From the NCBI RefSeq assembly GCF_014647755.1, contig NZ_BMPU01000004.1:62001-126000 (forward strand): a stretch of DNA of 64,000 nucleotides. The letters are read 5' to 3'. The position numbers and the translations under genes are program-made. Positions 2,738 through 64,000 of the stretch are shown here, piece by piece (within the stretch, counting starts at the first letter, position 1; every line of letters starts with the position of its first letter). The stretch is from Porphyromonas pasteri (GTDB taxonomy: Bacteria; Bacteroidota; Bacteroidia; Bacteroidales; Porphyromonadaceae). The notes beneath the pieces were generated by a model that did no database searches, was not told the origin of the DNA, and saw only the letters and a list, made by a program, of their open reading frames with translations.

Positions 2738-5662
2738 TTAGTCGAGGGTCTTCTTGATCTCGATTTCTTCGTAGGCCTCGATGATGTCACCGACCATGAT
2801 GTCGTTGTAGCCATCGATATTCAGACCGCAGTCCTGACCCATGACGACTTCCTTAGCATCGTCCTTGTAGCGCTTGAGAGAGCCGAGTTCGCCCTGGTAC
2901 TTGACGATACCATCGCGGATGAGGCGGATCTTGTTGTTGCGCTTGATCTTCCCTTCGACGACCATACAGCCGGCGATAGTACCGACCTTGGTGATCTTGA
3001 AGGTCTGCTGAACCTCGAGGTTGGCCACGACATTCTCCTTGATTTCGGGCGAAAGCATCCCTTCCATAGCGGACTTGATGTCTTCGATGGTGTCGTAGAT
3101 GATCGAGTAAGTACGGATCTCTACGCCCTCACGGTCTGCCAGACGACGAGCGGCCTGGCTGGGACGTACCTGGAAGCCCAGGATGATAGCAGAAGAAGCA
3201 GAGGCGAGCACGACGTCGCTCTCGGAGATCTGACCGACGCCCTTGTGGATGACGTTGACCTGAATTTCCTCCGTAGAGAGGCGGATGAGCGAGTCGGAGA
3301 GCGCTTCGATAGAGCCGTCCACGTCACCCTTGATGATGACATTGAGCTCCTGGAAGTTGCCCAGCGCACGACGACGAGCGAGTTCGTCGAGGGTAAGCCC
3401 CTTCTTCGTGCGGTTATCCTGCTCACGCTTGAGCTGCTCACGCTTGCTGGCGATGCTACGCGCTTCCTGCTCGGTCTCCATGACGTTGAAGGTCTCACCT
3501 GCGGTAGGTGCACCGTCCAAGCCAAGGATCAGAACGGGTTCGCTGGGGCCAGCATGCTCGACCTTCTGATTACGCTCGTTGAACATAGCCTTCACACGGC
3601 CATAGTGCGTACCTGAGAGGACGACGTCACCCTGCGAGAGCGTACCATTCTGCACGAGGACAGTAGCCACATAGCCACGACCCTTATCGAGTGAAGACTC
3701 GATGACGGAGCCGACGGCACGGCGCTTGGGGTTAGCCTTGAGCTCGAGAAGCTCAGCTTCGAGGAGGACCTTCTCCAGCAGTTCATCGATGTTGATGCCC
3801 TGCTTAGCGGAGATCTCCTGGCACTGGTACTTACCACCCCATTCCTCGACGAGGTAGTTCATGGCAGCGAGCTGCTCACGGATACGGTCCGGGTTAGCGC
3901 CAGGCTTATCGATCTTATTGATCGCGAAGACCATGGGCACACCAGCGGCGGCGGCATGGTTGATAGCTTCCTTCGTCTGAGGCATCACGTCGTCGTCAGC
4001 GGCGACGATGATGATAGCGATGTCCGTGACCTTCGCACCACGAGCACGCATAGCGGTGAAGGCTTCGTGACCTGGCGTATCAAGGAAGGTAATGCGCTTA
4101 CCACCCTTGAAGCGGATGCTGTAGGCACCAATATGCTGGGTGATCCCCCCTGCTTCACCAGCGATGACGTTGGTATTGCGCAGGCGGTCGAGGAGTGACG
4201 TCTTACCGTGGTCGACGTGACCCATGACGGTGACGATAGGAGGACGGCTGATGAGATCAGCTTCGTCATCGACCTCTTCTTCCTGCGTGATGGCTTCGAC
4301 GACCTCAGCGCTGACGAAGTCGGTCTTGTAGCCGAATTCTTCTGCGACCATCTCGATGGTCTCAGCGTCGAGGCGCATGTTGATAGACACCATCAGCCCG
4401 ATGCTCATACAGGTAGCGATGACCTGCGTCACGGGGACATCCATGAGGCTTGCGAGGTCACTGACGGTGACGAACTCAGTGAGCTTCAGCGTACGGCTTT
4501 CGGCTTCGCTACGCTCCTGAGCGTCGAGAGCTGCAGAGCGAGCAGCGTCACGCTTGTCCTTACGGTACTTAGCGGACTTCGCACCCTGCTGGTTCTTACC
4601 CGTCAAACGAGCAAGCGTCTCCTTGACCTGACGCTGTACATCTTCGTCAGTGACGACAGCCTTCTGAGGCTGCTGGCTCTGACGCTTGGCCTTACGGCCG
4701 GTCTTCTGCTCGGCAGCACCCTGCTGGGCATTGCCACGACCACCGCGGTTGTTGGGGTCTGCGGAGCGACCATTACCACCATTACCATTGCGCTGTCCGG
4801 GCTTCTTCGTGCCATTGTCCGTCACCTTAGCGGCTTCGGCCTTGACATCGACGGGACCCTTACCGATGCGGGTGCGCTTACGGCCCTTGTCGGCAGCGGA
4901 CTTCTTAGCGGGGCGCGTATTATCGTTGATCGAAGAGAGGTCGATCTTACCTACTACGTTGAAGCTGATCCCTGCACTTGGAGTCGAAGGGCGATAGATC
5001 TCGGGCTCACGCACCGTGGGCTCCTCTGCAGCGGGAGTAACCTTGGGCTCGGGCTTTACCTCGGGCGCTGCAGGGGCAGGCTCGGGAGCAGGCGCTGGCT
5101 TTGGCTCAGACTTGGGGGCGGGAGCTTCGACCTTAGGAGCGGGTGCAGGAGCAGGCTCGGGCTTGGGCTCAGGCTTGACCTCTACCTTGGGCTCGGGCTT
5201 AGCTGCTGGTGCAGGAGCCTCGGCCTTAGGGGCAGGAGTGGGCTTGGGCTTAGGCTCGGCCTTCGCCTTGGCGGCGGGCTTAGCTTCAGCCTTCTTCTCC
5301 GTAGAGATGGAGCCCTTGATATTGAGGCTGGGGCGGCGATCCTCGGGGACGACTGTCTCGATGTGCTTTACCTTCGCGGGAGCGGGCTCAGCAGCGGGGG
5401 CCTCGGGCTTAGCTGCAGGCTTGGCAGGAGCAGGCTTAGCAGCGGCACCACTGAGGGTGTCGAGGAGCGCGGCGATCTCGGCCTTGCCCATGCCCTTGCC
5501 GTGCTCAGCGATGAGCTGCTCGGCCACCTCGCGGGGTACGCGAGTGTTGGGGGTGATAGTATTGACGTCTAAGACGTTCTTCTTCTCTAACGAATCCTTG
5601 AATGAGCCAATCCCTACGTTGAGTTCCTTGGCCAAGGTAAAGAGCTTGATGTCCTTTGGCAT
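2738..5662 (-). CDS. infB: Translation initiation factor IF-2
   Basis: This 974-residue protein is IF-2, the GTPase that places initiator tRNA on the 30S subunit and drives 50S joining. It opens with an IF2_N-like helix ([12 protein letters not shown]), followed by a long low-complexity Ala/Pro/Glu/Lys linker up to about residue 240. A basic region comes next, then the G domain near residue 475. That domain shows G1 [10 protein letters not shown]3 DTPGHEAF and G4 NKID, and is followed by the beta-barrel and C-terminal domains. It is the last gene of rimP-nusA-infB, 126 bp after nusA. The GC-rich linker produces long false open frames on the opposite strand. Confidence 0.98.
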
Positions 5663-45645: not shown

Positions 45646-45731
<86 letters not shown>

Positions 45732-45733
45732 AA

Positions 45734-45820: not shown

Positions 45821-48208
45821 TTATTTAGGGTTAATACTTAGAAGAAAAGCATCATATTGATCTGGATCTTTGGTCTTGATAGTCTCTAGTATATACTGGG
45901 CACATTTCTTTATCTCGGCATGATCGGACATAGACATCCCCCTCTCCATTAACCCCTCAAGATGTGAAAGTTCGTTATCAATGCGATCTATAGTAGTAGC
46001 CGCACATTCATCTGAGAAGAAGCGCATCATTTTCTTATGGAGGCAGTTTGTATCGTTATCAGGATATTTATAATATAGATAGGCCTCTAAAAATTTACGT
46101 GCATTATTCCCAAAGCCATAAAACAGCTCATATGCTTCATTTTCAGCCGCTTGACTACATTTATAGATTTGGTGAAATAGGTAATTAAACTCTGTCACAT
46201 GTTCTTTCATATACTTCGGCATAACACTGATAACCGAAGAATGCCCCTTCCGTTCCAATAAGAAGCGCTGGATTTGAATATTCCGCTGCTTTATATCGCC
46301 TTTCTTATCTGAATAGGGTATAGTCAGTTCCTTTGTATGGAGCCGTTTGAGGTACCTCAAGAAATCAAGATTATGGGTAGATATAAAGAGCTGTACCCAC
46401 TGATGTTTAGCCGCTATTTGCTGGTCTATCAGCGAGAAGATAAAGAACACATGATTAACATCCAAGCTCGATATAGGATCATCAATCCAAATTATTGGCT
46501 TTTCTGCTACAGTCTCAACATCCTCCAGTTTCGCAACGAAGTACGAAAAAGCAACTAGATTACGTTCCCCTTCACTCAAGTTATACGCTTTCTGCTCTCC
46601 TCGAAACACATCAAAGTAAACACCTTCTTCATTATCTTTCTTAACAGCTCTAAGCTCAATGAATCTATGTCCAAAATAGTTTTTCAGAATTGCATTTACT
46701 TTTCTTGCTCCCTCTTCTTCATTTTGACGGAGGCGCTCTTTTTCTTTAATAGCTTTCTCCTTGGAAAGAACTGTTTTTTCCTTTGCTTCCTTTGCTTCTC
46801 CTTTCTCTTTGAGAACCGCCTCTTTCTCTAATATGAGCTTGACTTTCTCTTCATAGCCTATGTCTTCCTTAAAGCGAGAAACTTCAGCTAAACGGAGTTT
46901 TTCCTGAGTTTTAGATTGCTCCTGCTTAAGCTTAGCACCATACTCAGCTGCACTTTTCTCAAGATTCTCAATCCGACTATAAATTGCATTGAGATCTGAA
47001 ATATCAAATGCGGATTCAATATAAGAAGGGGTAGAATGAATATCCGCTAATTTCTCTTTCACTTGTAGCAAAATGTCGTTCAACGCTGTCAAAAGGTTCT
47101 CTCGAAGTTTATCCATGTCCTTATTAATATCCTCTACCTCAACTTTAAAGTGCTGATAGTATTTCTCAGGTGATATTTTGTAGAGATCCTTTGCTACTTG
47201 AATATGTTCTTCTAACCAATCAACCGCCTTCTCTGCCTTATCTTTCAATTTCCTTGTAGCTTCGTCGTAATGACGTTCTAACTCTGCCCAGCGATTGTTT
47301 GTGATTTCACCTCCACAGAATAAACAAGTTTTCTTTCCCTCATGTAGTTTACATCCTTCCTCAACCCATTTGTTTGCTATTGCATTGCGTACTAATTCTT
47401 CAATTTTTCCTGATGGCATTATCTGCTGCTCCACAATAACCTTAATTCGTTGATTGATGTCCTCGAAACTTGGGAAAGAACATTCTGATATAAGTGTGAT
47501 TTGCTTTGTCTCTTCCTTTAATAGTGCTTTCAACTCAACTAATTGCTCGTTTGCCAGTTGATTGTCGTGAGTAACATTCTTAAGTTCATCTTCGAGTTTG
47601 GCTACATTGTAATTCTGATCGCCAAAAATATGGGATAGATACTTGATACCGGATTTCTTATCCAGAGCCTTAAGCTTGAGCATCTTCTCTAACCGTTCTT
47701 TCTCTTCCTTTATTTCTTTTTCTGCATCTTGATAGTCTTTGACTGCATTCTTTCTCTCCAGATAAAGTCCAGTTTCATTCCCTTCTTCTGCTGACCCTAA
47801 CAGACCTTTTAGCTCTTGGATTTCTAACTCAATCTGGGCGTTTTCACCCAATACGGCAAAGGGTGTTATACCTTCTTCAGGATTACCAATAAAGAGTAGA
47901 TTCTCTTTCATAAAGTCTTCATTGAAGACTCGAACAGGGATTGTAAAGTTCGCTATAGATTTTTCATCTATAGTATTTCCATTGCTCAGTTCCAACTGGA
48001 ACGAACCACTCTCAAACTTTTCGAGTCCGCATTTTAACTCTAAGGCACGAAAAATCCGAGAAAGAGTTGTCTTTCCCGAATAGTTACGCCCAAATAAAAT
48101 GTTTATATCTTGTAAGGTCTCTATTTTTCCATTATCGTCTACAACGTTCTTGTCCCATTCAAAATCTTTGAAAACCCCTAGATTCTTGACGTCAAACTTT
48201 TTAATCAT
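45821..48208 (-). CDS. RloC-like ABC/SMC-type ATPase with zinc hook (AAA_13; possible anticodon nuclease)
   Basis: A 795-residue ABC-type ATPase: Walker A GRNYSGKTT at 40-48, signature LSEGERN at 544-550, Walker B IIWIDDP at 572-578 and His-switch FISTHNL at 608-614. Between them are long coiled coils interrupted by CLFC at 295-298, a zinc-hook CxxC. The C-terminal tail has R704-x3-E708 and H749. This echoes the Arg/Glu/His triad of PrrC/RloC anticodon nucleases, where Arg and Glu are also four apart; the His is further away here than in PrrC. Such proteins cut tRNA when the linked restriction system is disabled. Nuclease activity is inferred. It follows hsdS by 84 bp. Confidence 0.78.
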   Translation of the reverse strand: MIKKFDVKNLGVFKDFEWDKNVVDDNGKIETLQDINILFGRNYSGKTTLSRIFRALELKCGLEKFESGSFQLELSNGNTIDEKSIANFTIPVRVFNEDFMKENLLFIGNPEEGITPFAVLGENAQIELEIQELKGLLGSAEEGNETGLYLERKNAVKDYQDAEKEIKEEKERLEKMLKLKALDKKSGIKYLSHIFGDQNYNVAKLEDELKNVTHDNQLANEQLVELKALLKEETKQITLISECSFPSFEDINQRIKVIVEQQIMPSGKIEELVRNAIANKWVEEGCKLHEGKKTCLFCGGEITNNRWAELERHYDEATRKLKDKAEKAVDWLEEHIQVAKDLYKISPEKYYQHFKVEVEDINKDMDKLRENLLTALNDILLQVKEKLADIHSTPSYIESAFDISDLNAIYSRIENLEKSAAEYGAKLKQEQSKTQEKLRLAEVSRFKEDIGYEEKVKLILEKEAVLKEKGEAKEAKEKTVLSKEKAIKEKERLRQNEEEGARKVNAILKNYFGHRFIELRAVKKDNEEGVYFDVFRGEQKAYNLSEGERNLVAFSYFVAKLEDVETVAEKPIIWIDDPISSLDVNHVFFIFSLIDQQIAAKHQWVQLFISTHNLDFLRYLKRLHTKELTIPYSDKKGDIKQRNIQIQRFLLERKGHSSVISVMPKYMKEHVTEFNYLFHQIYKCSQAAENEAYELFYGFGNNARKFLEAYLYYKYPDNDTNCLHKKMMRFFSDECAATTIDRIDNELSHLEGLMERGMSMSDHAEIKKCAQYILETIKTKDPDQYDAFLLSINPK

Positions 48209-48292: not shown

Positions 48293-49735
48293 TCAACGCC
48301 TCAGAACTTTCTCCATCTGTTGCAGTGCGTCTTGCTCCTTGAGATAAGCTTTGTAGCGCAGGGCATTTGCCTCTAGCACTAAGTTATTGATGCGTGACTG
48401 AACCGCCTTATCCGTCAGGAGGGGAATGGAGACTTCAGCTAACTGCTTATCATCAATCTCATCAATGACAGCACCATAATTATTGCGCACAATGAGAGGG
48501 AAACAATATGGGGAAGATAGCCAGCTATAAATATAGCCAGCTATTTCATCGGACGCAGGAATCACTCTCATCACATGCTGATTGATCGCCCAGCCATTCC
48601 AATGACGAGGAGCAATCTGCACTTTTCCAATAGTACCACTGCAACTTACCAAACACATATTCTTTTTGATGGAGAGTTCTTGATCGATGCGGTCTCCATG
48701 ATTATTGAGAGATAAATATTTATCTCCCGAAGGATCCAACTGTAACAGTTGTTTACCTCCAAAGAAAGGTACCCCTTTCCCCTTTTCAACATAAATACGT
48801 TTGAAACGTCCTGGCAAGATTATTTCCTTGCTCACCCTTGGGTCGCCGAGGGTGGTGACTTCGGCAGCATTTTGGGCAATGAGGAAGAGGATTTCCTTGA
48901 CTTCGGGCACGTGGTAGGAGGCATCGAAGCGGTTGTTGAGTTCCTCGTGCTTGACAGTGAAGCAGCGGAAGCCAGCATCGGGCGTATAGTACTGCGGGGT
49001 CAATTCCATCTTTGCAGACAATCCGAGTGCGTCATAGAGCAAGCGTTGCGCCTCGTCGATGAGGTCGTTCGATTGGTCGCGTAGGTCGTAGGATGCTACT
49101 ACAGCCTCGTGAATGCTCCGCTTGATTTCTTCGGGCGCATTCGGGATGGGGAGCCTCATTAGATGTATAGGTTCAATATGATCAATGACTGCTCCATAGT
49201 TATTGCTCTGCAAAAGCTTCAAGCCCACCTCTGTGTTGAGATAGGCATAGACGTAACCGAGATCGTATGATCCTTGGAAGGTAACACGAAGCAAATCATG
49301 GCTAAATACTTGCTTATCCATCTTCTTACTAACCAGACTCGTCTTACCAATAGTCCCCGATACAGAAACTAACAACATTCCTTTATTGACTCTCAAGTCA
49401 TCTAATGGAGCCACGGTCTTTGCCGAGATATACTTGCTTGGGCTTGGATATACATTCTCTATATCTGAAGGTAGAAAGAATGGAATATCATTCTTATTCT
49501 CTGTGTATATCCGCTTAAAGCGTCCTCCAACATACGCATCCTCGACCAATCCCTTTTTGCTCCAGAGATAGACCCAGCCATAAGGGTTGTGGTGTACTCG
49601 TGAGAGTGCATCCATAGCGCCGATGTCGTAGGCTGAAGCATCAAGGCGATAACCATTACTGATGACTTGCTCCTTAGCAAGAGTATACCAACGCAAAGGA
49701 GGTAAAAGCTCTTTCAGTTCCTTATCCTCTACCAT
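48293..49735 (-). CDS. hsdS: Restriction-modification specificity (S) subunit
   Basis: A DNA-recognition subunit with two target-recognition domains. Each ends in the conserved (L/C)-V-S-x-S-G-T-I-G-K signature: LLVSVSGTIGKTSL in the first half, CLVSCSGTIGKVQI in the second. Each is followed by a spacer helix, the second at the C-terminus (RYKAYLKEQDALQQMEK). Starting at ATG 49735 gives 480 residues and a 7-bp overlap with the methylase-fusion stop; a GTG at 49759 is less likely. The two half-sites it reads cannot be predicted from sequence. It works with the nuclease-methylase fusion. Confidence 0.9.
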   Translation of the reverse strand: MVEDKELKELLPPLRWYTLAKEQVISNGYRLDASAYDIGAMDALSRVHHNPYGWVYLWSKKGLVEDAYVGGRFKRIYTENKNDIPFFLPSDIENVYPSPSKYISAKTVAPLDDLRVNKGMLLVSVSGTIGKTSLVSKKMDKQVFSHDLLRVTFQGSYDLGYVYAYLNTEVGLKLLQSNNYGAVIDHIEPIHLMRLPIPNAPEEIKRSIHEAVVASYDLRDQSNDLIDEAQRLLYDALGLSAKMELTPQYYTPDAGFRCFTVKHEELNNRFDASYHVPEVKEILFLIAQNAAEVTTLGDPRVSKEIILPGRFKRIYVEKGKGVPFFGGKQLLQLDPSGDKYLSLNNHGDRIDQELSIKKNMCLVSCSGTIGKVQIAPRHWNGWAINQHVMRVIPASDEIAGYIYSWLSSPYCFPLIVRNNYGAVIDEIDDKQLAEVSIPLLTDKAVQSRINNLVLEANALRYKAYLKEQDALQQMEKVLRR

Positions 49736-51762
49736 ACGATACCTTGTTGACGTTTCCACTTCAAGAAGACTTCTGCCACCATGATGGTCTGGTCGTTAAC
49801 GATCTTCTCTTCAAAATTCTCCTTGCGATAAGTCACTTCGCCAGTCTCAGCATTAATCTCGCGCACCTCGTTCTCTTCGTGACGCAAGACCAAGTTCCCC
49901 TCTTCGTCACGCTTATACACCGTGTTACCTCGCTTATCATGCCCAATGTGGTCTACCATAACCATGAAGATCTCTTCATTGGGGATAAATCCGAGCTTCA
50001 GCTCTTCTTGCAATTCGGCTTCTGTCTTCTTGACTACAAAGAGGATGGAACACTGCGTACCATTGTGAGGTTGGAAGGTGTCTGCATGCAGGTCAATGCT
50101 GGCGATGATATGCGTCTTTTGCATGAGCCACACACGAATGAACTCCAAGCCTGGCGAAGAGAAGATGCTATCGGGCAAGACGATGGCAGCACGCCCACCA
50201 GGCTTCAAGAGCTGGATGATGCGCTCAATGAAAATTTGTTCGGGCGGCACACTCACACGGAGCTTCGTGGGGTTCATCTTCCACTTGCCGTGCTGGTCTT
50301 TCGTCCACGTGTGGGCCAGGTCAAACTGTTCAAGTATCTGCTGGTCGTTGATGGGAATTTTAGACCCGAAGGGCGGATTGGTGACGATGACGTCAAAGAG
50401 GTCGATGGTCTTGTGATTGACAATTGAGTCTTTGGCTCGTCCCATACGCGCTTCGAGCAGATGCTTCTTCTCTTCGCTCCACTCGTGGGGAGGAAGGAGG
50501 CTGTTGAGCTGAATGATGTTGCCACTACCGTCGTTGTTCATCACCATGTTCATCTTCGTAGCCTTCACCAGGTCGGGGTTGATGTCGAAGCCAAAGAAGT
50601 TCTCTCCAGCAATCTCTGTGATCTTATTGTTGAAGGCATCGCGTATCATCGGTGGCCAGTCTTCAATGTTCTCGCCATATTCCCCTTGCATTTGGGCTTT
50701 GAGCGTAGCGATAACGGCATTCATGGCCGTGACCACAAAGCCTCCAGTGCCACAACTGCTGTCGAGCACCTTCTCTCCCTCTCGTGGCGCAATCATGGCC
50801 ACCGCCATCTGCATCACATTGCGAGGGGTGAAGAACTCTCCGCGGTCGCCACGGAGGTTGGAACCCACAATTTCCTCATAGGCCTTGCCCTTGAAGTCGA
50901 TGCGCGTGTCGAGGAGCGAATATTTCTGAAGTTCGCCCACCAAATGAGTGAGCGTGCGTGGCTCTAGCTTGATGGTGTCATTGGCTTCAAAGATCTTACC
51001 CTGCTTCTTCTTCACTTCCTCAAAGATGGCCGCGATGCGTTTATACACCGTGGCTTGCCCATCTGAATTGTTGCGCTCAGAAGCTGTGGTGTAGAACTCT
51101 ACGGGCTGGGTGACGTTGCGCTCATCGGTGATCTTGCAGAAGATGACCTTGAGAAACTCAAAGAAGGCTGCCTGCTTGGAGTGTCCCTCATTGACCGAAA
51201 TGATGTCGTGACAAGTGCGGAAGGTGAAGAGCAGATTGTCGTCTGTAGCCTTAGACATGAGACCACGCTTAGGACGATCGTTGGCACTATTGCTACCATC
51301 GGCTGAGGGGATGTCATTGGCTTCTTCGAAGAGAATGTTCCCCTTGTCGTCTGTCACTTTCTGATAGACGGTCTTGTGCTTTCCGTTGGTCCACATGCCC
51401 CACACGCAGTTGCTGCACGAAGCCATATATGTCTTGAGTTGGGCCACACCCTCCTCTTTGTCGGTAGGCTTCACCGACTCCTTTTTGCACTCAATCACGA
51501 GGACAATGTTCTGCTGGTCTTGTTGCTCTTCGGCCGTGGCCTCTTCTGAGAAGATCACAATGTCTGCCCGCTTCTTGCCATCGCCCATCTTGATGGGATA
51601 CTCCACAGCAATACGCGCCTTGGGATATTTATGCTCAACCACGAGACGCTTCTCTACTGTCTGGCGCACATACTCCTCGGGCGTATCCTTGCGGATAGTC
51701 CCATCGATGTAGTCTCTTATCTTCCCTTCGGGAACGATCTGATATTTTTGTTCTTCTGCCAT
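49729..51762 (-). CDS. Fused PD-(D/E)XK nuclease-N6-adenine methyltransferase (BcgI-like/Type I-like)
   Basis: From the ATG at 51762 the protein has 677 residues. Residues 1-100 form an HsdR-N-like nuclease domain, with D67 in RADIVIF and E91-C-K93 in LVIECKK. The rest is an N6-adenine methylase of the HsdM type: helical HsdM N-terminal part, SAM motif DSSCGTGGF at 334-342 and catalytic NPPF at 462-465. Cutting and modifying activities in one chain plus a separate S subunit, with no HsdR helicase nearby, recall Type IIB enzymes such as BcgI. The classification is an inference. It starts 1 bp past the XRE gene stop, so it is probably translated by coupling. Confidence 0.85.
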   Translation of the reverse strand: MAEEQKYQIVPEGKIRDYIDGTIRKDTPEEYVRQTVEKRLVVEHKYPKARIAVEYPIKMGDGKKRADIVIFSEEATAEEQQDQQNIVLVIECKKESVKPTDKEEGVAQLKTYMASCSNCVWGMWTNGKHKTVYQKVTDDKGNILFEEANDIPSADGSNSANDRPKRGLMSKATDDNLLFTFRTCHDIISVNEGHSKQAAFFEFLKVIFCKITDERNVTQPVEFYTTASERNNSDGQATVYKRIAAIFEEVKKKQGKIFEANDTIKLEPRTLTHLVGELQKYSLLDTRIDFKGKAYEEIVGSNLRGDRGEFFTPRNVMQMAVAMIAPREGEKVLDSSCGTGGFVVTAMNAVIATLKAQMQGEYGENIEDWPPMIRDAFNNKITEIAGENFFGFDINPDLVKATKMNMVMNNDGSGNIIQLNSLLPPHEWSEEKKHLLEARMGRAKDSIVNHKTIDLFDVIVTNPPFGSKIPINDQQILEQFDLAHTWTKDQHGKWKMNPTKLRVSVPPEQIFIERIIQLLKPGGRAAIVLPDSIFSSPGLEFIRVWLMQKTHIIASIDLHADTFQPHNGTQCSILFVVKKTEAELQEELKLGFIPNEEIFMVMVDHIGHDKRGNTVYKRDEEGNLVLRHEENEVREINAETGEVTYRKENFEEKIVNDQTIMVAEVFLKWKRQQGIVW

Positions 51763-51763
51763 T

Positions 51764-51967
51764 TTATTTGATGAGTTCTTTGGGAGACACACCGAGCAAG
51801 TCGGCCACCTTAAAAAGGGTGACCAGATTGGGCTGCTTGCGATTGCACACATAGGCATTGGTGATGCTGAAGCTCATACCTAGCTCCTTGGCAAGCCACG
51901 TTTGCGTGATACCTCGCTTCTTCAAATACTCCTTGATGAGATTGCTATGCTCTTTCTTCTGCCCCAT
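51764..51967 (-). CDS. XRE-family helix-turn-helix regulator (restriction controller-like)
   Basis: A 67-residue Cro/C1-type DNA-binding protein: KKRGITQTWLAKELGMSFSI and NAYVCNRKQPNLVTLFKVADLLGVSPKEL form the five-helix HTH fold. It is the first gene of the restriction operon, 1 bp before the nuclease-methylase start, a position typical of controller (C) proteins that delay the nuclease. A perfect -7 box lies 24 bp upstream (51991-51998), so it can autoregulate. Confidence 0.88.
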   Translation of the reverse strand: MGQKKEHSNLIKEYLKKRGITQTWLAKELGMSFSITNAYVCNRKQPNLVTLFKVADLLGVSPKELIK

Positions 51968-55608: not shown

Positions 55609-55983
55609 TTAGAACTCATCATACTCAGAGTATCTGAACCGATCCAAGATTCTTAGTGTGTCGGCTTCGCGGATGTACCAAACCGTGATGAGGCTATCAG
55701 CTTTAATTCTCCAAGTAAACTCCAGGATCCATGTATTGTGTGCTAAGCGCTGCTCCATGGGGAACTGTTGCTCCACGGGATGCCGAAATTCATCATGCTT
55801 CTCCTGCAAGATAAAGCTATCCCGATAAAGTGGCTCATAGAGGCTATCCAGTTCCATGGGTGTGTAACTGATCGGGAGCTTCTGAGGCGGTATGTATTGC
55901 GATTGCTCCCTACTAGGACCTGTGCAGGCGAGGAGACTAGAAATAAAGCAAGAAACCTGAAGAATCTTCGTGAACACACTCAT
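55609..55983 (-). CDS. Small lipoprotein, paralogue 1
   Basis: A 124-residue protein with a lipoprotein signal (QVSCFISSLLAC). The mature part is shared with the proteins at 56047-56427 and 62823-63191: conserved blocks are RDSFILQEKHDEFR, a TWILEFTWRIKADSLITVWY block and READTLRILDRFRYSEYDEF. No known family was recognised. The three copies all lie next to Rhs fragments, so an immunity role against an Rhs toxin is possible but not shown. It converges on the remnant behind mobC. Confidence 0.65.
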   Translation of the reverse strand: MSVFTKILQVSCFISSLLACTGPSREQSQYIPPQKLPISYTPMELDSLYEPLYRDSFILQEKHDEFRHPVEQQFPMEQRLAHNTWILEFTWRIKADSLITVWYIREADTLRILDRFRYSEYDEF

Positions 55984-56046: not shown

Positions 56047-56427
56047 CTAGAACTCATCATGCTCTGAGAATCTGAAGTGTCTCAGTTTCCTCAGCGTGTC
56101 AGCTTCTCTTACATACCAAACGGTGATGAGGCTATCAGCCTTCTCCCGCCAAGTAAACTCCAGGATCCAGGTCTTATGAGCCATCCGTTGCTCCATAGGG
56201 AAGAGCCTCTCTGTCGGATTTCTAAACTCATCGTGTAGCTCCTGCAAGATGAAGCTATCCCGGCAAAGAGGCTGATAGAGCTGATCCAATTCCTGGGGCA
56301 TATAAGTCGTAGGACATACGCTATGAACTTCTCGTTGCTCTTTCCCTCGACAAGAACAAACGACAAGACATACTAAAAGACGCACTCCCCAAAAGAGAGA
56401 ATTGGTTCTGTCCAGATACCAGGCCAT
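56047..56427 (-). CDS. Small lipoprotein, paralogue 2
   Basis: A 126-residue close relative of the 55609-55983 protein (most mature residues identical), with lipobox-like VVCSC after a hydrophobic stretch. The segment FRNPTERLFPMEQRMAHKTW parallels FRHPVEQQFPMEQRLAHNTW in paralogue 1. The two genes are 63 bp apart on the same strand, so they are probably a recent tandem duplication. Function unknown. Confidence 0.65.
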   Translation of the reverse strand: MAWYLDRTNSLFWGVRLLVCLVVCSCRGKEQREVHSVCPTTYMPQELDQLYQPLCRDSFILQELHDEFRNPTERLFPMEQRMAHKTWILEFTWREKADSLITVWYVREADTLRKLRHFRFSEHDEF

Positions 56428-56472: not shown

Positions 56473-56994
56473 TCATATCATCGTCAGCTCACCCGAGGGG
56501 CTGTAGCTATACTGAGTGAGGCCGTAGCGGTCATCCTCGATCGAGAGGAGCCGATCGGCACTGCCCCAGTTGTAGTGGCGGGAGCGGCGCTGCTCCGCAG
56601 AGCGGCGGGTCTTACGATCAACCAAACGGCCGATGTTGTCATAGGCAAAGCTCTGACTAACGCCTCCTGGTAAGAGACGCTCCAGCTCAAAGCCTAGACT
56701 ATCGTACTGATGCTCGCTGGTAAAGCTCGCATCTGTTTCCGCTTCACCGGCTCTGAAGCAAACTAGCTCGCCATAAGCATTGCGCTCATAGCTCAGCTGA
56801 GCGCCGAGACTGCTCCGTAAAGATACGATAAGTCCGTGTTTGTCATAGCTTCGCTCGATGAGATGTGCATCACAACGCTCCTCAACAGGCAAGCTGAGAT
56901 TATTGCAGCGGAAGCTTACCCGGGCGTGTTCATTCAGCACCTCTCGTAGGTACCCTGATAGTTTGAGTGAACTAGTACCTCCTTCATGGGTCAC
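56473..56994 (-). pseudogene. Rhs/YD-repeat protein fragment
   Basis: A 173-codon open piece of an Rhs protein. YD-type repeats are visible in SYDKHGLIVSLRSSLGAQLS, YDSLGFELERLLPGG and AYDNIGRLVDRKTRRSAEQR. It ends abruptly at GELTMI, where intact Rhs proteins continue into the core. The N-terminal side runs into a decayed stretch (57000-57190) with stops. Rhs proteins are large polymorphic toxins or surface proteins. This piece cannot work alone, and part of it is repeated at 61884-62179. Confidence 0.75.
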
Positions 56995-57293
56995 CTTAGC
57001 GACCTATGGTGGGTCCTCGAGACTATCCCTAGTTAGCTTTGTTGACGACCTATCAGGTCTACCCTTGAGGCGAGAGGACTCTCCGCGTTGGGCTAGCGAC
57101 TCGTGTATGATCTTCCGATACGCACCCGAGCTGGCAACTGAGACTGTGAAGATAATTGAGGTCGAATCATGGTACACTAAAGGAATGAGACCTGTATAAG
57201 TTTGCGGGAATGTAAAGCTAGTAGCTCCTCAAGCATAGATAGAAAAGCAATACGATAGCCAAGAGGATAAGGAAGCCACTGACAATACACAAG
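56735..57293. repeat. Direct repeat, left copy (Rhs fragment to small membrane protein)
   Basis: About 559 bp aligned to 61884-62463 in the same orientation, with scattered substitutions and a small insertion in the right copy. It includes part of the Rhs frame and the C-terminal part of the small membrane protein. Homology stops sharply after gacaatacacaag at 57293. Confidence 0.85.
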
Positions 57294-57570: not shown

Positions 57571-59580
57571 CTACTGTAATCCCAATTTGTGGAAGAAAAT
57601 GGCGTTCCTCATTTTCGCATCTTCTACGACCTTCTTAAAACTCATTATTTGAACATAGGCATTATAGGCTTTCATATATCCCATATATCCTTCGCCATCT
57701 GGAGTCTGAGTGAGGCTAGCTTCATCTGCAAACTGTTGAATTCGAGGAACTATATCAGCCACAATATATAAGTAAATAGGAGTATACTGTGCATCTACCT
57801 TGATATTCTCAGACCCATCTGGCACTTCATATTTCCCCTCTAGTATCTTGCGAGCATATCGGCAAGCTTGTGTTATAGGGTTCTCTGAGTCACTATACTC
57901 TTTTCTACGAGGTCTCTTAAACTCATATATAGAGATTGGAGAGGTAATCACGTTATCTCCATTTCTCATAAAGACTTTCTCATCAAAGAACGCAACTAGA
58001 TCAGGTTCATCATGGTCCTTTGATGATATAACCTTATCCGAAGCTATATACTTTGAAAAAACAAGTCTCTCATCAAGTAGCCACAAGTTATGTTCATCAT
58101 ACCTTGTATCAAGGCTTGTCTTTCTCATAGGATAAATGATATTGTGGATATCAGATTCTAGATGAGCTTTCCCATCTTCTTTTCTAGCTCTAAGAGCATC
58201 AAACAAGTCAAGCACCCTTTTCCTATTGCACACATAATGAATAAGATCATTTTTTCCAGCCTCTGTAACAGCTTGTAATATCATATCAATCTGCTTTCCT
58301 AGTACGTCAAGAGGAGAGTCTATATCTTGATTCTGATTTAGCACGTTTATGGCATTACGTGCAGCTTGTTCCTTTTGGAATTTACATTCCTGAAATTTCA
58401 TTTCTATTTCCTGCTCAGATATAGACATTGGCATACTATCTACGTCTATGTCGTTCTCTAGAAATTTATGCCAAGGTGCTTTTTGTGCCACATACTGGCT
58501 AACCTTCTTCTTTTTTTCCTCTAATCGTTCATGAACCTCATCCTTGAAACATTCTTTGACTACATCTGCTGCAGCTTTTTCAATGTCAGACTCTGATATT
58601 TCAGCAAACAAATCATCTCCCGTTTTGGATATGGTAAAAGCATCTCGCTCAACTGTCACATTCTCATCAAGAAAATCTCCAATGACATAAGCCTTTACAA
58701 CATAGTTCTTTGTTGATCCTTTAGAGTCGACCATTATCAAAGGGGACTTGAACTCTGGAATGTATTTATGCATAGGAGTATCTGTAACCTCTCTTTTATT
58801 AGCAGTAAGGCTAATTTTGCTACTCATAGTAGAGAAAAATATCTTATATACTTGTACTTTGAGCTGGATACTTAGGTTATTCTTACTCTTAAGAGGCAAT
58901 GGGGCTTCTTTTACTAAATTAATATCCCTATCTTCTCCAATATAATCGTTGAGACAGATCTCTTCACTACCATCCTCTTCTCTCAGTATAATCTGTGGCA
59001 TACTTTTGGTATTATCGACAAAAAAAACAAGAAGACGTTCCACTAATTTTCTAGCAATAACTTCAAGTCCCTTATCGATATTACTGTTTTTCAAAATGGA
59101 CATTAGATGTAATGTTGTCCCAGTTTGGTTATGTCCCGACACCTCCTCTTCAACCTCATCTACAATGATGTCATTCTTCTTACCAAAGGCAAAGGAACGT
59201 TTTCTCATTTCCCCCTTATCATTACGGAAGTAGCTTTCTACTTGCACCCTATCAAAGTATTTCAAGTACATAAAACGACCAAATCCCTTTCCTCCTTTCT
59301 CATACTTGAAACTGCTGCGAAAGGTATCAAAAGACTCTCTATTTTCTCGATTGAACCCGACTCCATTGTCTACGACATCTATTGATATGATGCTTCCCTT
59401 AACTTGATTTCCTTCAAGGTCAGAGTTTATAGGTTCTCGCTTGACAATAACCTCAACATGTCCCTTGGGTGAGTCCCCAATAGCATCAACTGAGTTGCAA
59501 ACCGCCTCGATAATGGGAGTAAGATAAGTTGTTTTACTCCTGATGTCGCGAACTATACCTAGGATATTGATTTTACTCAT
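57571..59580 (-). CDS. GHKL (Hsp90/MutL-like) ATPase fused to a PD-(D/E)XK nuclease domain
   Basis: A 669-residue protein. Its N-terminal 110 residues hold a GHKL ATP site: N-box EAVCNSVDA (25-33), G1 DNGVGF (71-76) and G2 GGKGFGRF (96-103). A middle region with coiled-coil character follows. Near the C-terminus, D527 in EPDLVAFF and E553-x-K555 in IYEFKRP form a PD-(D/E)XK nuclease core, followed by ITQACRYARKI. An ATP-driven clamp joined to a nuclease suggests action on foreign or damaged DNA. I know no named system with exactly this build. It is the last gene of a three-gene operon, 26 bp after the SLOG-like gene. Confidence 0.78.
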   Translation of the reverse strand: MSKINILGIVRDIRSKTTYLTPIIEAVCNSVDAIGDSPKGHVEVIVKREPINSDLEGNQVKGSIISIDVVDNGVGFNRENRESFDTFRSSFKYEKGGKGFGRFMYLKYFDRVQVESYFRNDKGEMRKRSFAFGKKNDIIVDEVEEEVSGHNQTGTTLHLMSILKNSNIDKGLEVIARKLVERLLVFFVDNTKSMPQIILREEDGSEEICLNDYIGEDRDINLVKEAPLPLKSKNNLSIQLKVQVYKIFFSTMSSKISLTANKREVTDTPMHKYIPEFKSPLIMVDSKGSTKNYVVKAYVIGDFLDENVTVERDAFTISKTGDDLFAEISESDIEKAAADVVKECFKDEVHERLEEKKKKVSQYVAQKAPWHKFLENDIDVDSMPMSISEQEIEMKFQECKFQKEQAARNAINVLNQNQDIDSPLDVLGKQIDMILQAVTEAGKNDLIHYVCNRKRVLDLFDALRARKEDGKAHLESDIHNIIYPMRKTSLDTRYDEHNLWLLDERLVFSKYIASDKVISSKDHDEPDLVAFFDEKVFMRNGDNVITSPISIYEFKRPRRKEYSDSENPITQACRYARKILEGKYEVPDGSENIKVDAQYTPIYLYIVADIVPRIQQFADEASLTQTPDGEGYMGYMKAYNAYVQIMSFKKVVEDAKMRNAIFFHKLGLQ

Positions 59581-59606
59581 AATGGTATACTTAATTAAGC
59601 AACTAT

Positions 59607-60074
59607 TTATTTGTTACTATGTTGCAATAGCTCTACCTTATTCTGATACTTCCGATAATACTCCCACAGCGAACTATCCTCATGAATATATCCAAAGAGA
59701 AGATGCCCAGCCTGTTGGGAAATGTAATCATTGCGAAGATCTGCAGTAGGCTTGCTTACTCGGCTTGCCTCAGGGGATGTGCTCACAATAAGCATACGTC
59801 CTTCATCATAAGCAGACTGCCATTCGGCTGGGATCGTAGCGTACGGCTTGCATGCTAAGACCACAATGACGCTATGCCCCCCTTTGCCCAAAAGCAACTG
59901 TAAAACATCACGTTCGATGGGCGAGTGAAAGCCACTCATCAAGACTCGTCCACTGGGCAAGGTCGTTGCCCAATCGCAGCAGGGGAATATAGCTCGGTTG
60001 CTCACCCTGCTAGAGCAGAGGAAGCCGAGCTTATAAGCGTTGAGGTGTTTTTGGTTGTCGAGATATTTATGCAT
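59607..60074 (-). CDS. DprA/SLOG-like Rossmann-fold protein
   Basis: A 155-residue protein resembling the SLOG (DprA/LOG) superfamily. GRVLMSGFHSPIERDVLQLLL parallels the DprA 'SGxA.GID...H..AL' region. VIVVLACKPYATIPAEW, GRMLIVSTSPEAS and LRNDYISQQAGHLLFGYI parallel the later 'RNR..I' part. It lacks the DprA partner domains. SLOG proteins bind nucleotides or nucleic-acid-derived ligands and recur in defence systems. It starts 4 bp past the AlbA_2 gene stop and ends 26 bp before the GHKL-nuclease gene. Confidence 0.65.
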   Translation of the reverse strand: MHKYLDNQKHLNAYKLGFLCSSRVSNRAIFPCCDWATTLPSGRVLMSGFHSPIERDVLQLLLGKGGHSVIVVLACKPYATIPAEWQSAYDEGRMLIVSTSPEASRVSKPTADLRNDYISQQAGHLLFGYIHEDSSLWEYYRKYQNKVELLQHSNK

Positions 60075-60078
60075 AGGC

Positions 60079-61569
60079 TTACGCTTGTTTTAGACGATAG
60101 CATTGATTGCGGCTAGTTGGTTTGTCTGGAATGGTTAGCTCTATGATGCCAGCCTGAAGCATCTTCGTTAGGTATCTATTACGGACTGTTCGGTCTGTTA
60201 TCCCCAGTATCACAGACAACTCGGACGCCTTATGAGGCTCTATCAAGTGGCGGATAAGTACATACAAGTTTTTCTCCTCTTTGCTTGGAAAGTACTTGGG
60301 TACTAACTTGGTAAACAACTTGGTAAACAACTTGGTAAAATCGTCCTCAGACGTCATCGTTTTGCTCTGATTATCCGTCATTTCGAGCGCCGAGTAGCTT
60401 GTCACCTCAAAGGCTGTGATCTTGGTAATATCGAAGTGAGGCTCAGCTCCTCCATTTTCCAACATCAAGCGTTTGACACGACTAATACCTCTGTTAAACA
60501 TATTGACATAGCCTAGTATCTTGAGAGCTTGAGCGATAATCGGATTGCGATAATCATTGACATTAGGGAAGTTTTCTGGGCGAGCTTTGCCATAGAGTCC
60601 TCCAGGATTCATAATCTCGATACGATCGTCAAACTGATAGAAGCGCGTGGGGGCATGAGACTGGTAGTCGCGATGCATACACGCATTCAGTATTAGCTCA
60701 CGCAAAGCCTCCTTGGGATAGTTGGACTGATTCTTCTCTCTGAGACTACTCACTGCGATAGGGCGTGTGTTAACCACGCCATAGTCTATAAACACTTCGA
60801 GCTGTGGCATCATTCTGCTTAGGCTACTATTGAAGGGCTTGTCGTCTAGAATTTCTCCCCCTTTGTCTAAGCCAGCAAAGCGAACATATTGTAGATACAT
60901 CCCAGGCAGAAACTGCTTAGGCTTCTTCCCAAACAATATGATGCAGGCATTCGTGGGACAATGGCGTTGCAAATCATAAAGCCCCAATGACGCCATTTGC
61001 TCTTCGATAGGTCGAGAGTCATTCAGGAGCTCTTCTGCATCTACAGCCTTAGGAATGTATTCCTTGCGGATGAAGTCAATATCCACATCTTCAAGTGTAG
61101 CTCTGTCACAAGGCAAAGCATCATAGGATGCCATATTGCTCATACGCTTCTCTGTGAGGATGCGCTCCTCGTCGAGGGTAGCAATATCTCTACGCGGACC
61201 AATACGGATAAAAGTGCGACCACGATAACGAACAGGCGGAGAGAAGGCGGGCTGCACCTCAACAATAAGCAGGTCGCCTCCCTCCAGCTCATAGCGTTCG
61301 CAGGTCATCATGGGGATCGGCAAGATGTTGCCATCGCTTCGAATGCCTGCTATCTTCTGATAAAGCTCATCGTCTACTTTCAAGCCCGACAGCTCACCGT
61401 TATCCTTTGCGCCAATGATGAGGTAGCCATTCTGGCGAGAATTGCTCATATCATTACTAAAAGCACAAATAGCCTCTTGAAACTTATCCATATTCGTTGT
61501 ACTCTCCGTACGCTCTATGCGTGAGGTCTCTGTACTATGGAGTAAGCTTTGTATTTCTTCTATTGCCAT
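60079..61569 (-). CDS. AlbA_2 (Schlafen-like) ATP-binding protein with winged-helix C-terminus
   Basis: A 496-residue protein: an AlbA_2 domain (about residues 15-130, with NGYLIIGAKDNGELSGL and FIRIGPRRDIATLDEER) and a HATPase_c_4-like region (ELILNACMHRDYQSHAPTRF, DRIEIMNPGG). A C-terminal winged helix (HKASELSVILGITDRTVRNR) completes it. Proteins of this build are often called transcriptional regulators. Residues 411-422 are FTKL three times over, encoded by a 12-bp tandem repeat. It is the first gene of the operon with the SLOG-like and GHKL-nuclease genes, so it may be its regulator or sensor. Confidence 0.85.
   Translation of the reverse strand: MAIEEIQSLLHSTETSRIERTESTTNMDKFQEAICAFSNDMSNSRQNGYLIIGAKDNGELSGLKVDDELYQKIAGIRSDGNILPIPMMTCERYELEGGDLLIVEVQPAFSPPVRYRGRTFIRIGPRRDIATLDEERILTEKRMSNMASYDALPCDRATLEDVDIDFIRKEYIPKAVDAEELLNDSRPIEEQMASLGLYDLQRHCPTNACIILFGKKPKQFLPGMYLQYVRFAGLDKGGEILDDKPFNSSLSRMMPQLEVFIDYGVVNTRPIAVSSLREKNQSNYPKEALRELILNACMHRDYQSHAPTRFYQFDDRIEIMNPGGLYGKARPENFPNVNDYRNPIIAQALKILGYVNMFNRGISRVKRLMLENGGAEPHFDITKITAFEVTSYSALEMTDNQSKTMTSEDDFTKLFTKLFTKLVPKYFPSKEEKNLYVLIRHLIEPHKASELSVILGITDRTVRNRYLTKMLQAGIIELTIPDKPTSRNQCYRLKQA
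60305..60340 (-). repeat. 12-bp in-frame tandem repeat (FTKL x3) in the AlbA_2 gene
   Basis: On the plus strand aacttggtaaac is repeated at 60305, 60317 and 60329 (last copy ends aaaa). Twelve bases keep the frame, so copy number changes would only alter the linker length. Confidence 0.9.
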
Positions 61570-61883: not shown

Positions 61884-62179
61884 GTCTCCGCTTCACCAGC
61901 TCTGAAGTAAACTAGCTCGCCATAAGCATTACGCTCATAGTTAAGCTAGGCTCCGAGACTGCTCCGTAAAGATACGATAAGTCCGTGTTTGTCATAGCTT
62001 CGCTCGATGAGATGTGCATCACAACGCTCCTCGACAGGCAAGCCGAAGTTGTTGTCGCGGGAGCTTACCCGGGCGTGCTCATTCATTGCCTCGCGTATGC
62101 GCCCCAATAGTTCGGGTAAACTAGTCACCCATTCATGGGTCGCTGGAGGGAGCCATGAATGGGGTACCTTGGCTACCAA
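61884..62179 (-). pseudogene. Rhs fragment, decayed second copy
   Basis: It has the same Rhs segment as 56738-56994 (VEERCDAHLIERSYDKHGLI, SLRSSLGA), but the codon after SSLGA is TAG instead of CAG, giving a stop. Beyond it the homologous frame goes on (NYERNAYGELVYFRAGEAET) until homology ends at 61884. The upstream part (62180-62390) is likewise decayed. Confidence 0.75.
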
Positions 62180-62463
62180 TGATGGGCTATCGAGACTACC
62201 CTTGGTTAGTTTTCTTGACGACCTGCCTGATCTTCCCTCGAGACGACAGGACTCTCCACATTGGGCCAGCTACTCGAGAATGATCTTCCGATATGATCTC
62301 AAGCTCAACCCTGATGTTGCTGGAAGCATTGCAGCCGGATCCTGGAGCACTGAAGGAATGAGCCCTGTACAAATTCACTAGACTGCAGAGCTAGTAGCTC
62401 CGTAAGAAGAGATAGAAAAATACGACAGCTAAGAGGATAAGGAGGGCACTGACGATACACAAG
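61884..62463. repeat. Direct repeat, right copy
   Basis: About 580 bp aligned with 56735-57293 in the same orientation. The two copies enclose the decayed frame and the three-gene operon (57294-61883). The 61570-61883 stretch left of it holds no recognisable gene. Confidence 0.85.
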
Positions 62464-62822: not shown

Positions 62823-63191
62823 TCAAAACACGGCGTCACGAGGATAGCTGAACTTCCCGAGAACCGTCAGCGAATCTCGGAAGGGCAAGTACCAAACCGT
62901 CAGGAGGCTGTCTTTATTCAAGCTCCAGGTGTACTCTAGAATCTTCGTCTGATGTGCCCTGCGCTCCTCATCCGAAAACAGATCTTCTATCGGCGCCCTA
63001 AACTCATCGTGCCCTTCGGAGAGGATGAAGCTGTCCCGCCTCAAGGGGATGTAGAGCTGATCTAGTTCGTCAATAGAATAGGTGCTTGGGGACTTGGGGC
63101 TAAGAGTTCCCTTCTGTCCTGAGCCAGTCTGTGAGGAGCACGATAGCCCTAGTGCTAGAAGGATGCTGGCATATAATAGGCTTGTTCGCAT
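62823..63191 (-). CDS. Small lipoprotein, paralogue 3
   Basis: A 122-residue lipoprotein (lipobox LGLSC) related to the two at 55.6-56.4 kb. Shared features are IDELDQLYIPLRRDSFILSE, HDEFRAP, ILEYTW and DSLLTVWYLP. It is more distant from the other two than they are from each other, and so probably the older copy. It lies upstream of the small membrane protein and the Rhs fragment on the same strand. Confidence 0.65.
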   Translation of the reverse strand: MRTSLLYASILLALGLSCSSQTGSGQKGTLSPKSPSTYSIDELDQLYIPLRRDSFILSEGHDEFRAPIEDLFSDEERRAHQTKILEYTWSLNKDSLLTVWYLPFRDSLTVLGKFSYPRDAVF

Positions 63192-63298: not shown

Positions 63299-64000
63299 TC
63301 ATAGCTGATTGAACTTACTCATAGCATTCGCCTTAATGTCGTCTGCAATATCGATGTAGGGCTTCATCGCCTTGTAGTCACTGTGCCCCGTCCATTTCAT
63401 CACGACTTGAGGAGGAATACCCAAGGCAAGGGCGTTACAGATAAAGGTGCGACGACCAGCATGCGTACCAAGCAGAGCATATTTAGGCGTCACCTCATCG
63501 ATGCGCTCGTTCCCTTTGTAGTAGGTTTGGCGGATAGGCTCGTTGATACCCGCAAGTTCGGCAAGCTCCTTGAGGTACTCATTCATCTTCTGGTTGGTGA
63601 TCACGGGCAGCGCCTTGTCGTGCTCAAATACCACATCCTGGTACTTCTCCAAGATAGCCTTACTGTGCTTGTTGAGCTCGATGACCAAGCTGTCAGAAGT
63701 CTTGATCGTAGTGACTTCTATATGATCTTCCTTGATGTCGCTTCTTCTGAGATTGTAGACATCTGAGTATCGCAGTCCGGTAAAGCACTGGAAGAGGAAG
63801 ACATCACGCACACGATCAAGCGACTGCTTCGCTGGAGGGATCTCGAACTCTCGAAGCTTAGTCAGCTCCTCCCAAGTCAAGAAGATGATCTTCTTCTGCG
63901 TATCCTTGAGCTTAGGTCTGAAGGTATCGTAAGCATTGTTCCTATGCATTCCCTGGCTGAAGCTCCAACGTAGAAACCACTTCAAGAAGCTGAGCTGCTT
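63299..64000 (-). CDS. Tyrosine recombinase/integrase (partial, 5' end outside window)
   Basis: The C-terminal 229 residues, plus a few at the very edge, belong to a tyrosine recombinase of the Bacteroidota phage-integrase-like group. Catalytic Arg is in TGLRYSDV, His-x-x-Arg in THAGRRTF, the second His in WTGHSDY and Tyr in MKPYIDI. The N-terminal SAM-like domain continues beyond position 64000 (the frame is still open there). It probably drives integration of the AT-rich island. It lies at the opposite end of the visible island from tRNA-Ser. Confidence 0.92.
   Translation of the reverse strand, partial: KQLSFLKWFLRWSFSQGMHRNNAYDTFRPKLKDTQKKIIFLTWEELTKLREFEIPPAKQSLDRVRDVFLFQCFTGLRYSDVYNLRRSDIKEDHIEVTTIKTSDSLVIELNKHSKAILEKYQDVVFEHDKALPVITNQKMNEYLKELAELAGINEPIRQTYYKGNERIDEVTPKYALLGTHAGRRTFICNALALGIPPQVVMKWTGHSDYKAMKPYIDIADDIKANAMSKFNQL

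Follow-up and report, generated by a model that had tools for sequence, protein, structure and literature searches.

We analyzed a 64,000-nucleotide stretch of Porphyromonas pasteri DNA (assembly GCF_014647755.1, contig NZ_BMPU01000004.1, positions 62,001 to 126,000 of the forward strand; hereafter the window), in which three co-directional genes, termed A, B and C, encode an AlbA_2 protein, a DprA-like protein and a GHKL ATPase–PD-(D/E)XK nuclease, respectively. A first-pass annotation had raised the idea of one new three-part defence system. Our analysis indicates with good confidence that no obligate three-part system is present and that the genes are a run of defence-island cargo carried by a tRNA-Ser island, with C being a self-contained anti-phage nuclease of the paraMORC3/Shedu type I-D kind and A and B its incidental neighbours.

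Domain architecture of C and its likeness to paraMORC3 and Shedu type I-D

The 669-residue C protein consists of an N-terminal GHKL ATPase with an S5-like domain, a helical region and a C-terminal PD-(D/E)XK nuclease (Table 1). Its only Pfam match is HATPase_c (E 9.7e-5), which lies under Pfam's own cut-off; the same model was matched by 16 of the 20 members of the C family at E ≤ 0.1. Against known structures, the AlphaFold2 model of C (predicted local distance difference test score 85.1, predicted template modelling score 0.70) gave MORC2, SMCHD1, Hsp90 and MORC3 as the top rows in VIA-align, with Z values of 19–20 over about residues 1–360. The S5-like domain following the GHKL domain is found in this comparison, as the match extends over the modules of MORC2, MORC3 and SMCHD1. 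The N-terminal ~360 residues of C thus have the GHKL–S5 fold in common with Hsp90 and these ATPase modules, all of them eukaryotic, and the match excludes the nuclease domain.

Sequence alignment revealed that D71, D527, E553 and K555, the four residues named in the first-pass annotation, do not vary between C and its 19 aligned relatives (20 of 20 sequences). This first alignment omitted L068–L071 among 13 genome loci; three of these and L162 were added later, and the relative at L071, which is split over two frames, lay outside the residue check. In C together with the 19 and four further relatives, E25, N29, D71, G73, G99, G101, E475, D527, E553 and K555 are invariant (24/24). A second alignment of C with 31 relatives from viral contigs, from which the broken locus L099 of 32 was excluded, kept D71, E475, D527, E553 and K555 in 32 of 32 sequences. 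Alignment and fold match therefore bear out the earlier description of C as a GHKL ATPase–PD-(D/E)XK nuclease, and the idea of an ATP-gated enzyme holds up as a putative property.

The combination of domains is that of a described protein kind. In the sections on paraMORC3, Iyer, Abhiman and Aravind (2008; PMC2292703) describe a GHKL and an S5 domain joined to a C-terminal restriction endonuclease-fold (RE-fold) domain with an E-D-ExK residue set, a prevalence in proteobacteria and Bacteroidetes, and a standalone subset; neighbours like A and B are unmentioned in those sections. C has the same domains and the same E-D-ExK set, and no difference from paraMORC3 was found in it. A 2025 paper places proteins of the paraMORC3 kind into Shedu type I-D, and its sections on VcSduA, a type I-D protein of the Vibrio cholerae WASA lineage, report that this single gene protects against phage, that the mutations E27A and K557A abolish defence, and that the growth curves are consistent with direct restriction (PMC12137116). 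Like C, VcSduA is one protein with a GHKL ATPase at the N-terminus and a PD-(D/E)XK nuclease at the C-terminus, and in both the ATPase glutamate lies near residues 25–27 and the nuclease lysine near residues 555–557. A relative from Vibrio fluvialis shares 30% identity with C, and its E27 and K556 compare with E27 and K557 of VcSduA. C and VcSduA differ in that C has two co-directional upstream neighbours, and activity has been demonstrated for VcSduA only.

As C has no direct match to a Shedu sequence model, we compared profiles with each other. A nuclease profile built from 24 C-type sequences aligned via hhalign to a profile of 11 Shedu proteins, chosen from 132 plasmid records found and including L030, with a probability of 90 and an E-value of 1.7e-6; the alignment spans 186 columns and places ExK on ExK. 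The whole-length C profile gave a probability of 85 (E 6.6e-6), and the controls gave 0.2 (B family) and 4.1 (HsdR N-terminus). The nuclease domains of C and of classical Shedu SduA (PDB 8ti8 and 8ps4, found with the V. fluvialis Shedu protein as query) are thus homologous by profile comparison, whereas the Shedu proteins aligned here showed no sign of a GHKL ATPase and C misses the Shedu sequence models. A Shedu chain was also absent among the structure-library rows shown for the whole C model. PADLOC, a check proposed in the first-pass annotation, returned no model for C at E ≤ 1 and, over 20 C members, one MTase_II and one PD-T4-6 match, each in a single member; C was accordingly rejected as a PADLOC-known system. 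A Rhizobium ATP-binding gene that adjoins a Shedu gene was considered as a C relative and rejected, as it is not one.

Judged from its sequence, C is most likely a paraMORC3/Shedu type I-D relative, that is, a further member of a kind already described. Of the outcomes named in the first-pass annotation as speaking against its reading, two were observed: the trio did not recur in the loci examined, and one of its parts, C, matches a system described under another name.

Genomic neighbourhoods of C and occurrence of the three genes

Of 295 genomes sampled from the order, 17 have C or a relative of it (16 besides the source; some matches are partial), and further relatives were found in 55 plasmid records (34 with at least 80% coverage), in one phage record and at 32 viral-contig loci. 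Thirteen of the 16 other genomes were examined as loci, leaving out G060, G070 and G170, and the neighbourhoods of ten regions from the 56 plasmid and phage records were annotated. In these ten regions C relatives adjoin type I restriction-modification (R-M) genes, a classical Shedu gene, CBASS-type genes (CBASS being the name that we presume for the annotated genes in L031), AbiE and others, and tblastn found no A or B relatives there. At 8 of 12 genome loci no same-strand frame lies within 60 nt of C. In the plasmid regions L025, L030 and L031, a gene overlaps the C relative, and the partner differs each time where identified. C has no constant neighbour. In one genome (G687) a C relative has an integrase on one side and a MobC relative on the other, and in another (G277) an A relative is close to a MobC relative; A, B and C thus seem to move independently of each other on elements of a similar kind.

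Two plasmid regions bear on the Shedu neighbours. On a Vibrio fluvialis plasmid (L030:6616-10010), a type I R-M operon ends with a classical Shedu gene and the C relative, which share an overlap of 4 nt. The Salinivibrio region L029 carries a C relative and no Shedu gene.

The same distribution bears on whether C might be a standalone repair or mismatch-type enzyme instead of a defence gene. For standalone paraMORC3 proteins, Iyer et al. considered roles beyond R-M, mismatch repair among them, in the sections cited above (PMC2292703). The relatives of C, however, are patchy in occurrence and are found on plasmids, on viral contigs and beside defence genes, and VcSduA restricts phage (PMC12137116), making a repair role extremely unlikely.

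Could the three genes nevertheless form one system, with B as sensor of a nucleotide or single-stranded DNA signal, A in a regulatory or nucleic-acid-binding role, and C as the nuclease that they license? Such a scheme draws on the common strand of the genes and the short gaps of 4 bp (A–B) and 26 bp (B–C) between them, coordinates that we confirmed as first annotated, and on domain types typical for sensing and effector parts. Neither B nor an adjacent A was found at any of 56 C loci, two of which have an AlbA_2 gene about 5 kb away; C was found at none of 34 B loci, and B or C at none of ten loci of A relatives. Among 38 genomes of the family, A occurs in 16, B in two and C in two, and all three only in the source genome. 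C and B occur together in one of 294 other genomes of the order, near chance (one-sided p 0.47) and on different contigs. After searches of genomes, plasmids, phages and viral contigs, a recurrent A–B–C trio was rejected, and we found no literature joining AlbA_2, DprA and defence. In addition, the protein of C's kind studied in V. cholerae protects as a single gene (PMC12137116), and the GC (guanine-cytosine) content of C (0.375) is unlike that of A (0.461) and B (0.476). This lower GC suggests that C is of a different origin from A and B. A new three-part system is thus unlikely, and the sensing-and-licensing scheme quite unlikely.

Several observations weigh against reading C as an independent Shedu-kind gene with incidental neighbours. 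Regarding its identity, C and the 19 aligned relatives match neither Pfam DUF4263 nor PADLOC SduA at E ≤ 0.1, and a search of PDB sequences with the C nuclease profile gave only chance-level matches, none of them a Shedu chain, at E ≤ 10. The listed structural matches cover about residues 1–405 of the C model and are all GHKL proteins, so that the nuclease domain falls outside them. The Shedu membership of C would hence derive from a single profile–profile match and a published classification, and the likeness of C to VcSduA is drawn solely from published residue numbers and from the V. fluvialis relative. Regarding its independence, a same-strand gene overlaps C or lies within 60 nt of it at 4 of the 12 genome loci as well as in several of the plasmid regions, and the flanks at many C loci are short, such that a distant partner could escape notice. 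At three of the 34 other B loci (L049, L052 and L128), B is immediately preceded by an AlbA_2 gene, which also speaks for the three-part scheme, and one genome (G704) harbours relatives of both A and B, located on different contigs. Finally, the tight spacing suggests shared transcription of A, B and C and perhaps a selected link. Given this spacing, co-transcription is plausible; a terminator-like hairpin 3′ of C (Table 1) is a pattern match only, as such sites do not exceed the shuffle level (2 found, shuffle mean 3.2), and predicted promoter sites are not in excess of shuffles either.

Genes A and B and type IIG-like methyltransferase loci

Gene A encodes an ATP-binding protein of the winged-helix AlbA_2 type, as first annotated: Pfam gave SLFN_AlbA_2 (7.1e-17), HATPase_c_4 (1.2e-15) and Fic-like_C (3.2e-11), of which the first two, at 62.5 bits (cut-off 25.3) and 57.8 bits (cut-off 26), are above the Pfam cut-offs. 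A match to A was found in 15 other genomes of the family, nine of which were examined and yielded the ten A loci; a plasmid search with A returned 96 distant records.

The 155-residue B protein is unmatched in Pfam, NCBIfam and PDB sequences. Its DprA-like nature holds through relatives only: PF02481, the DprA domain, is matched by 7 of the 11 rows of the B-family alignment (best 3.4e-8), from which L057 and L058 were left out. The B-family profile found DprA 3uqz in the PDB at a weak E-value of 0.86, and the structure model of B, built from three sequences, is poor, with a predicted local distance difference test score of 47.6. We presumptively use SLOG as a label for B. No relatives of B were found in the plasmid search. 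The PsyrA antitoxin of PsyrTA was considered for B and rejected, as the PADLOC match has an E-value of only 0.017 and A and C are devoid of a helicase domain in Pfam.

At 12 of the 34 B loci, which include several contig-end pieces or longer fused forms, an Eco57I/MmeI-type methyltransferase is found, compared with 2 of 56 C loci (p 1e-4 by Fisher test) and none of ten A loci; six of the 12 match by construction, having supplied the sequences for the methyltransferase profile. The match at L052 is weaker (6.5e-26). In these type IIG-like loci (e.g., L104, L127 and L128), the B relative is near the methyltransferase, and no such methyltransferase adjoins A–B–C. The other genes at B loci vary and include AlbA_2, OLD/UvrD, DarG, AAA_13 (PDC-S06), DUF3644 and YhcG. 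Such co-occurrence raises the possibility that DprA-like B relatives are an unrecognised accessory of type IIG-like methyltransferase loci.

Two side observations concern B relatives. At L104 a PDC-S06 protein adjoins the B relative, and a PDC-S06 match is also present on the source island. Longer B relatives with a C-terminal extension occur at L054:6721-7575 and L055:6837-7592; over this extension the B-family profile weakly matches Pur-alpha chains in the PDB (E 0.03), possibly a sign that a nucleic-acid-binding part has been fused on.

A and B might also be a two-gene module from type IIG-like loci that has lost its methyltransferase here, with C being separate, a proposal compatible with our reading of C. 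At L128 and L052 the genes for the methyltransferase, AlbA_2 and B share a strand, at L049 B follows AlbA_2, the methyltransferase family is enriched at B loci as described, and A and B are similar in GC while C is not. However, the enrichment was measured with a profile derived from six of the same loci, AlbA_2 at 4 of 34 B loci is not clearly above 2 of 56 C loci (p 0.19), and the A relatives of the same family, at 50%–79% identity, occur without B in the loci examined. We therefore regard such a module as a tentative and rather doubtful proposal; a weak link of A and B by themselves may exist. In a further reading, A–B–C would be a Shedu type I-D variant under added regulation, its GHKL-nuclease being tuned or licensed by an AlbA_2 protein and a DprA-like sensor that were recruited from type IIG-like methyltransferase loci; this we consider very unlikely.

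The tRNA-Ser island and a putative mechanism of C

A, B and C seem to be carried as cargo on a mobilisable island some 19 kb long, probably bounded by a 14-nt repeat at the 3′ end of a tRNA-Ser gene and a second copy just past a tyrosine integrase; by our rough estimate, about 0.03 chance matches are expected in the repeat comparison. The island contains R-M-like genes, mobilisation genes and the integrase; its first annotation as a mobile island beside a restriction locus proved sound. The AAA_13 ATPase, which matches the PADLOC candidate PDC-S06 (E 5.7e-268), is beside HsdS-like and N6 methyltransferase genes; the latter methyltransferase has its best matches among models other than the Eco57I/MmeI type. 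Further along the island, after the R-M-like genes, are an AAA_25 ATPase, a CHC2 primase and MobC. A degenerate direct repeat of about 560–580 bp flanks A–B–C, its pieces (families D1, D3, D4 and D5) being 74%–89% identical with a start-to-start spacing of 5149–5173; the RHS likeness of its frames is our reading of the frame 56473-56994, not the result of a family search. Three small, mutually similar lipoprotein-like frames are located near the repeats (55609-55983, 56047-56427 and 62823-63191).

Table 1. Features of the A–B–C region and its island in window coordinates, domains of C in residues, and loci at which a B relative accompanies a methyltransferase.
Feature	Position	Strand	Remarks
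Gene A	60079-61569	-	496 amino acids; AlbA_2 (Schlafen-like), HATPase_c_4, C-terminal winged helix
Gene B	59607-60074	-	155 amino acids; intact frame; DprA-like through relatives (putatively SLOG-like)
Gene C	57571-59580	-	669 amino acids; GHKL-S5 ATPase and PD-(D/E)XK nuclease; most likely paraMORC3/Shedu type I-D kind
C, GHKL ATPase and S5-like domain	~residues 1-330		
C, helical region	~residues 330-465		
C, PD-(D/E)XK nuclease	~residues 466-669		E475, D527, E553, K555
Terminator-like hairpin	57466-57434	-	3′ of C
tRNA-Ser	45646-45731		
Proposed attachment (att) copy, 14 nt	45719-45732	+	At tRNA-Ser 3′ end
Other proposed att copy, 14 nt	64758-64771		Window numbering, past window end; just past integrase
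Tyrosine integrase	63299-64597	-	Extends beyond window end at 64000
AAA_13 ATPase	45821-48208		PDC-S06 candidate
N6 methyltransferase	49729-51858		~8 kb from B
Degenerate direct repeat, left copy	56735-57293		RHS-like frames
Degenerate direct repeat, right copy	61884-62463		RHS-like frames
B loci with type IIG-like methyltransferase	L047, L050, L051, L052, L104, L126, L127, L128, L130, L133, L137, L164		

For GHKL ATPases, the MORC/MutL clamp provides an analogy for how C might work. From the MORC/MutL relatives and VcSduA we infer a putative model, in which the GHKL-S5 ATPase of C would dimerise upon ATP binding, yielding a MORC/MutL-like clamp that engages DNA. The closed clamp would then license the C-terminal PD-(D/E)XK domain to cut phage DNA. 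In our analysis C most likely acts alone; A is probably regulatory or nucleic-acid binding, and B would be a DprA-like Rossmann protein of putative function.

In summary, part of a seemingly new operon is now placed, most likely, in a described anti-phage family, and the close spacing of genes on an island need not imply one system. The analysis adds a putative Shedu-kind GHKL-nuclease on a mapped mobile island, and the DprA-like proteins recurring beside type IIG-like methyltransferases in genomes of the Bacteroidota phylum provide a testable lead.

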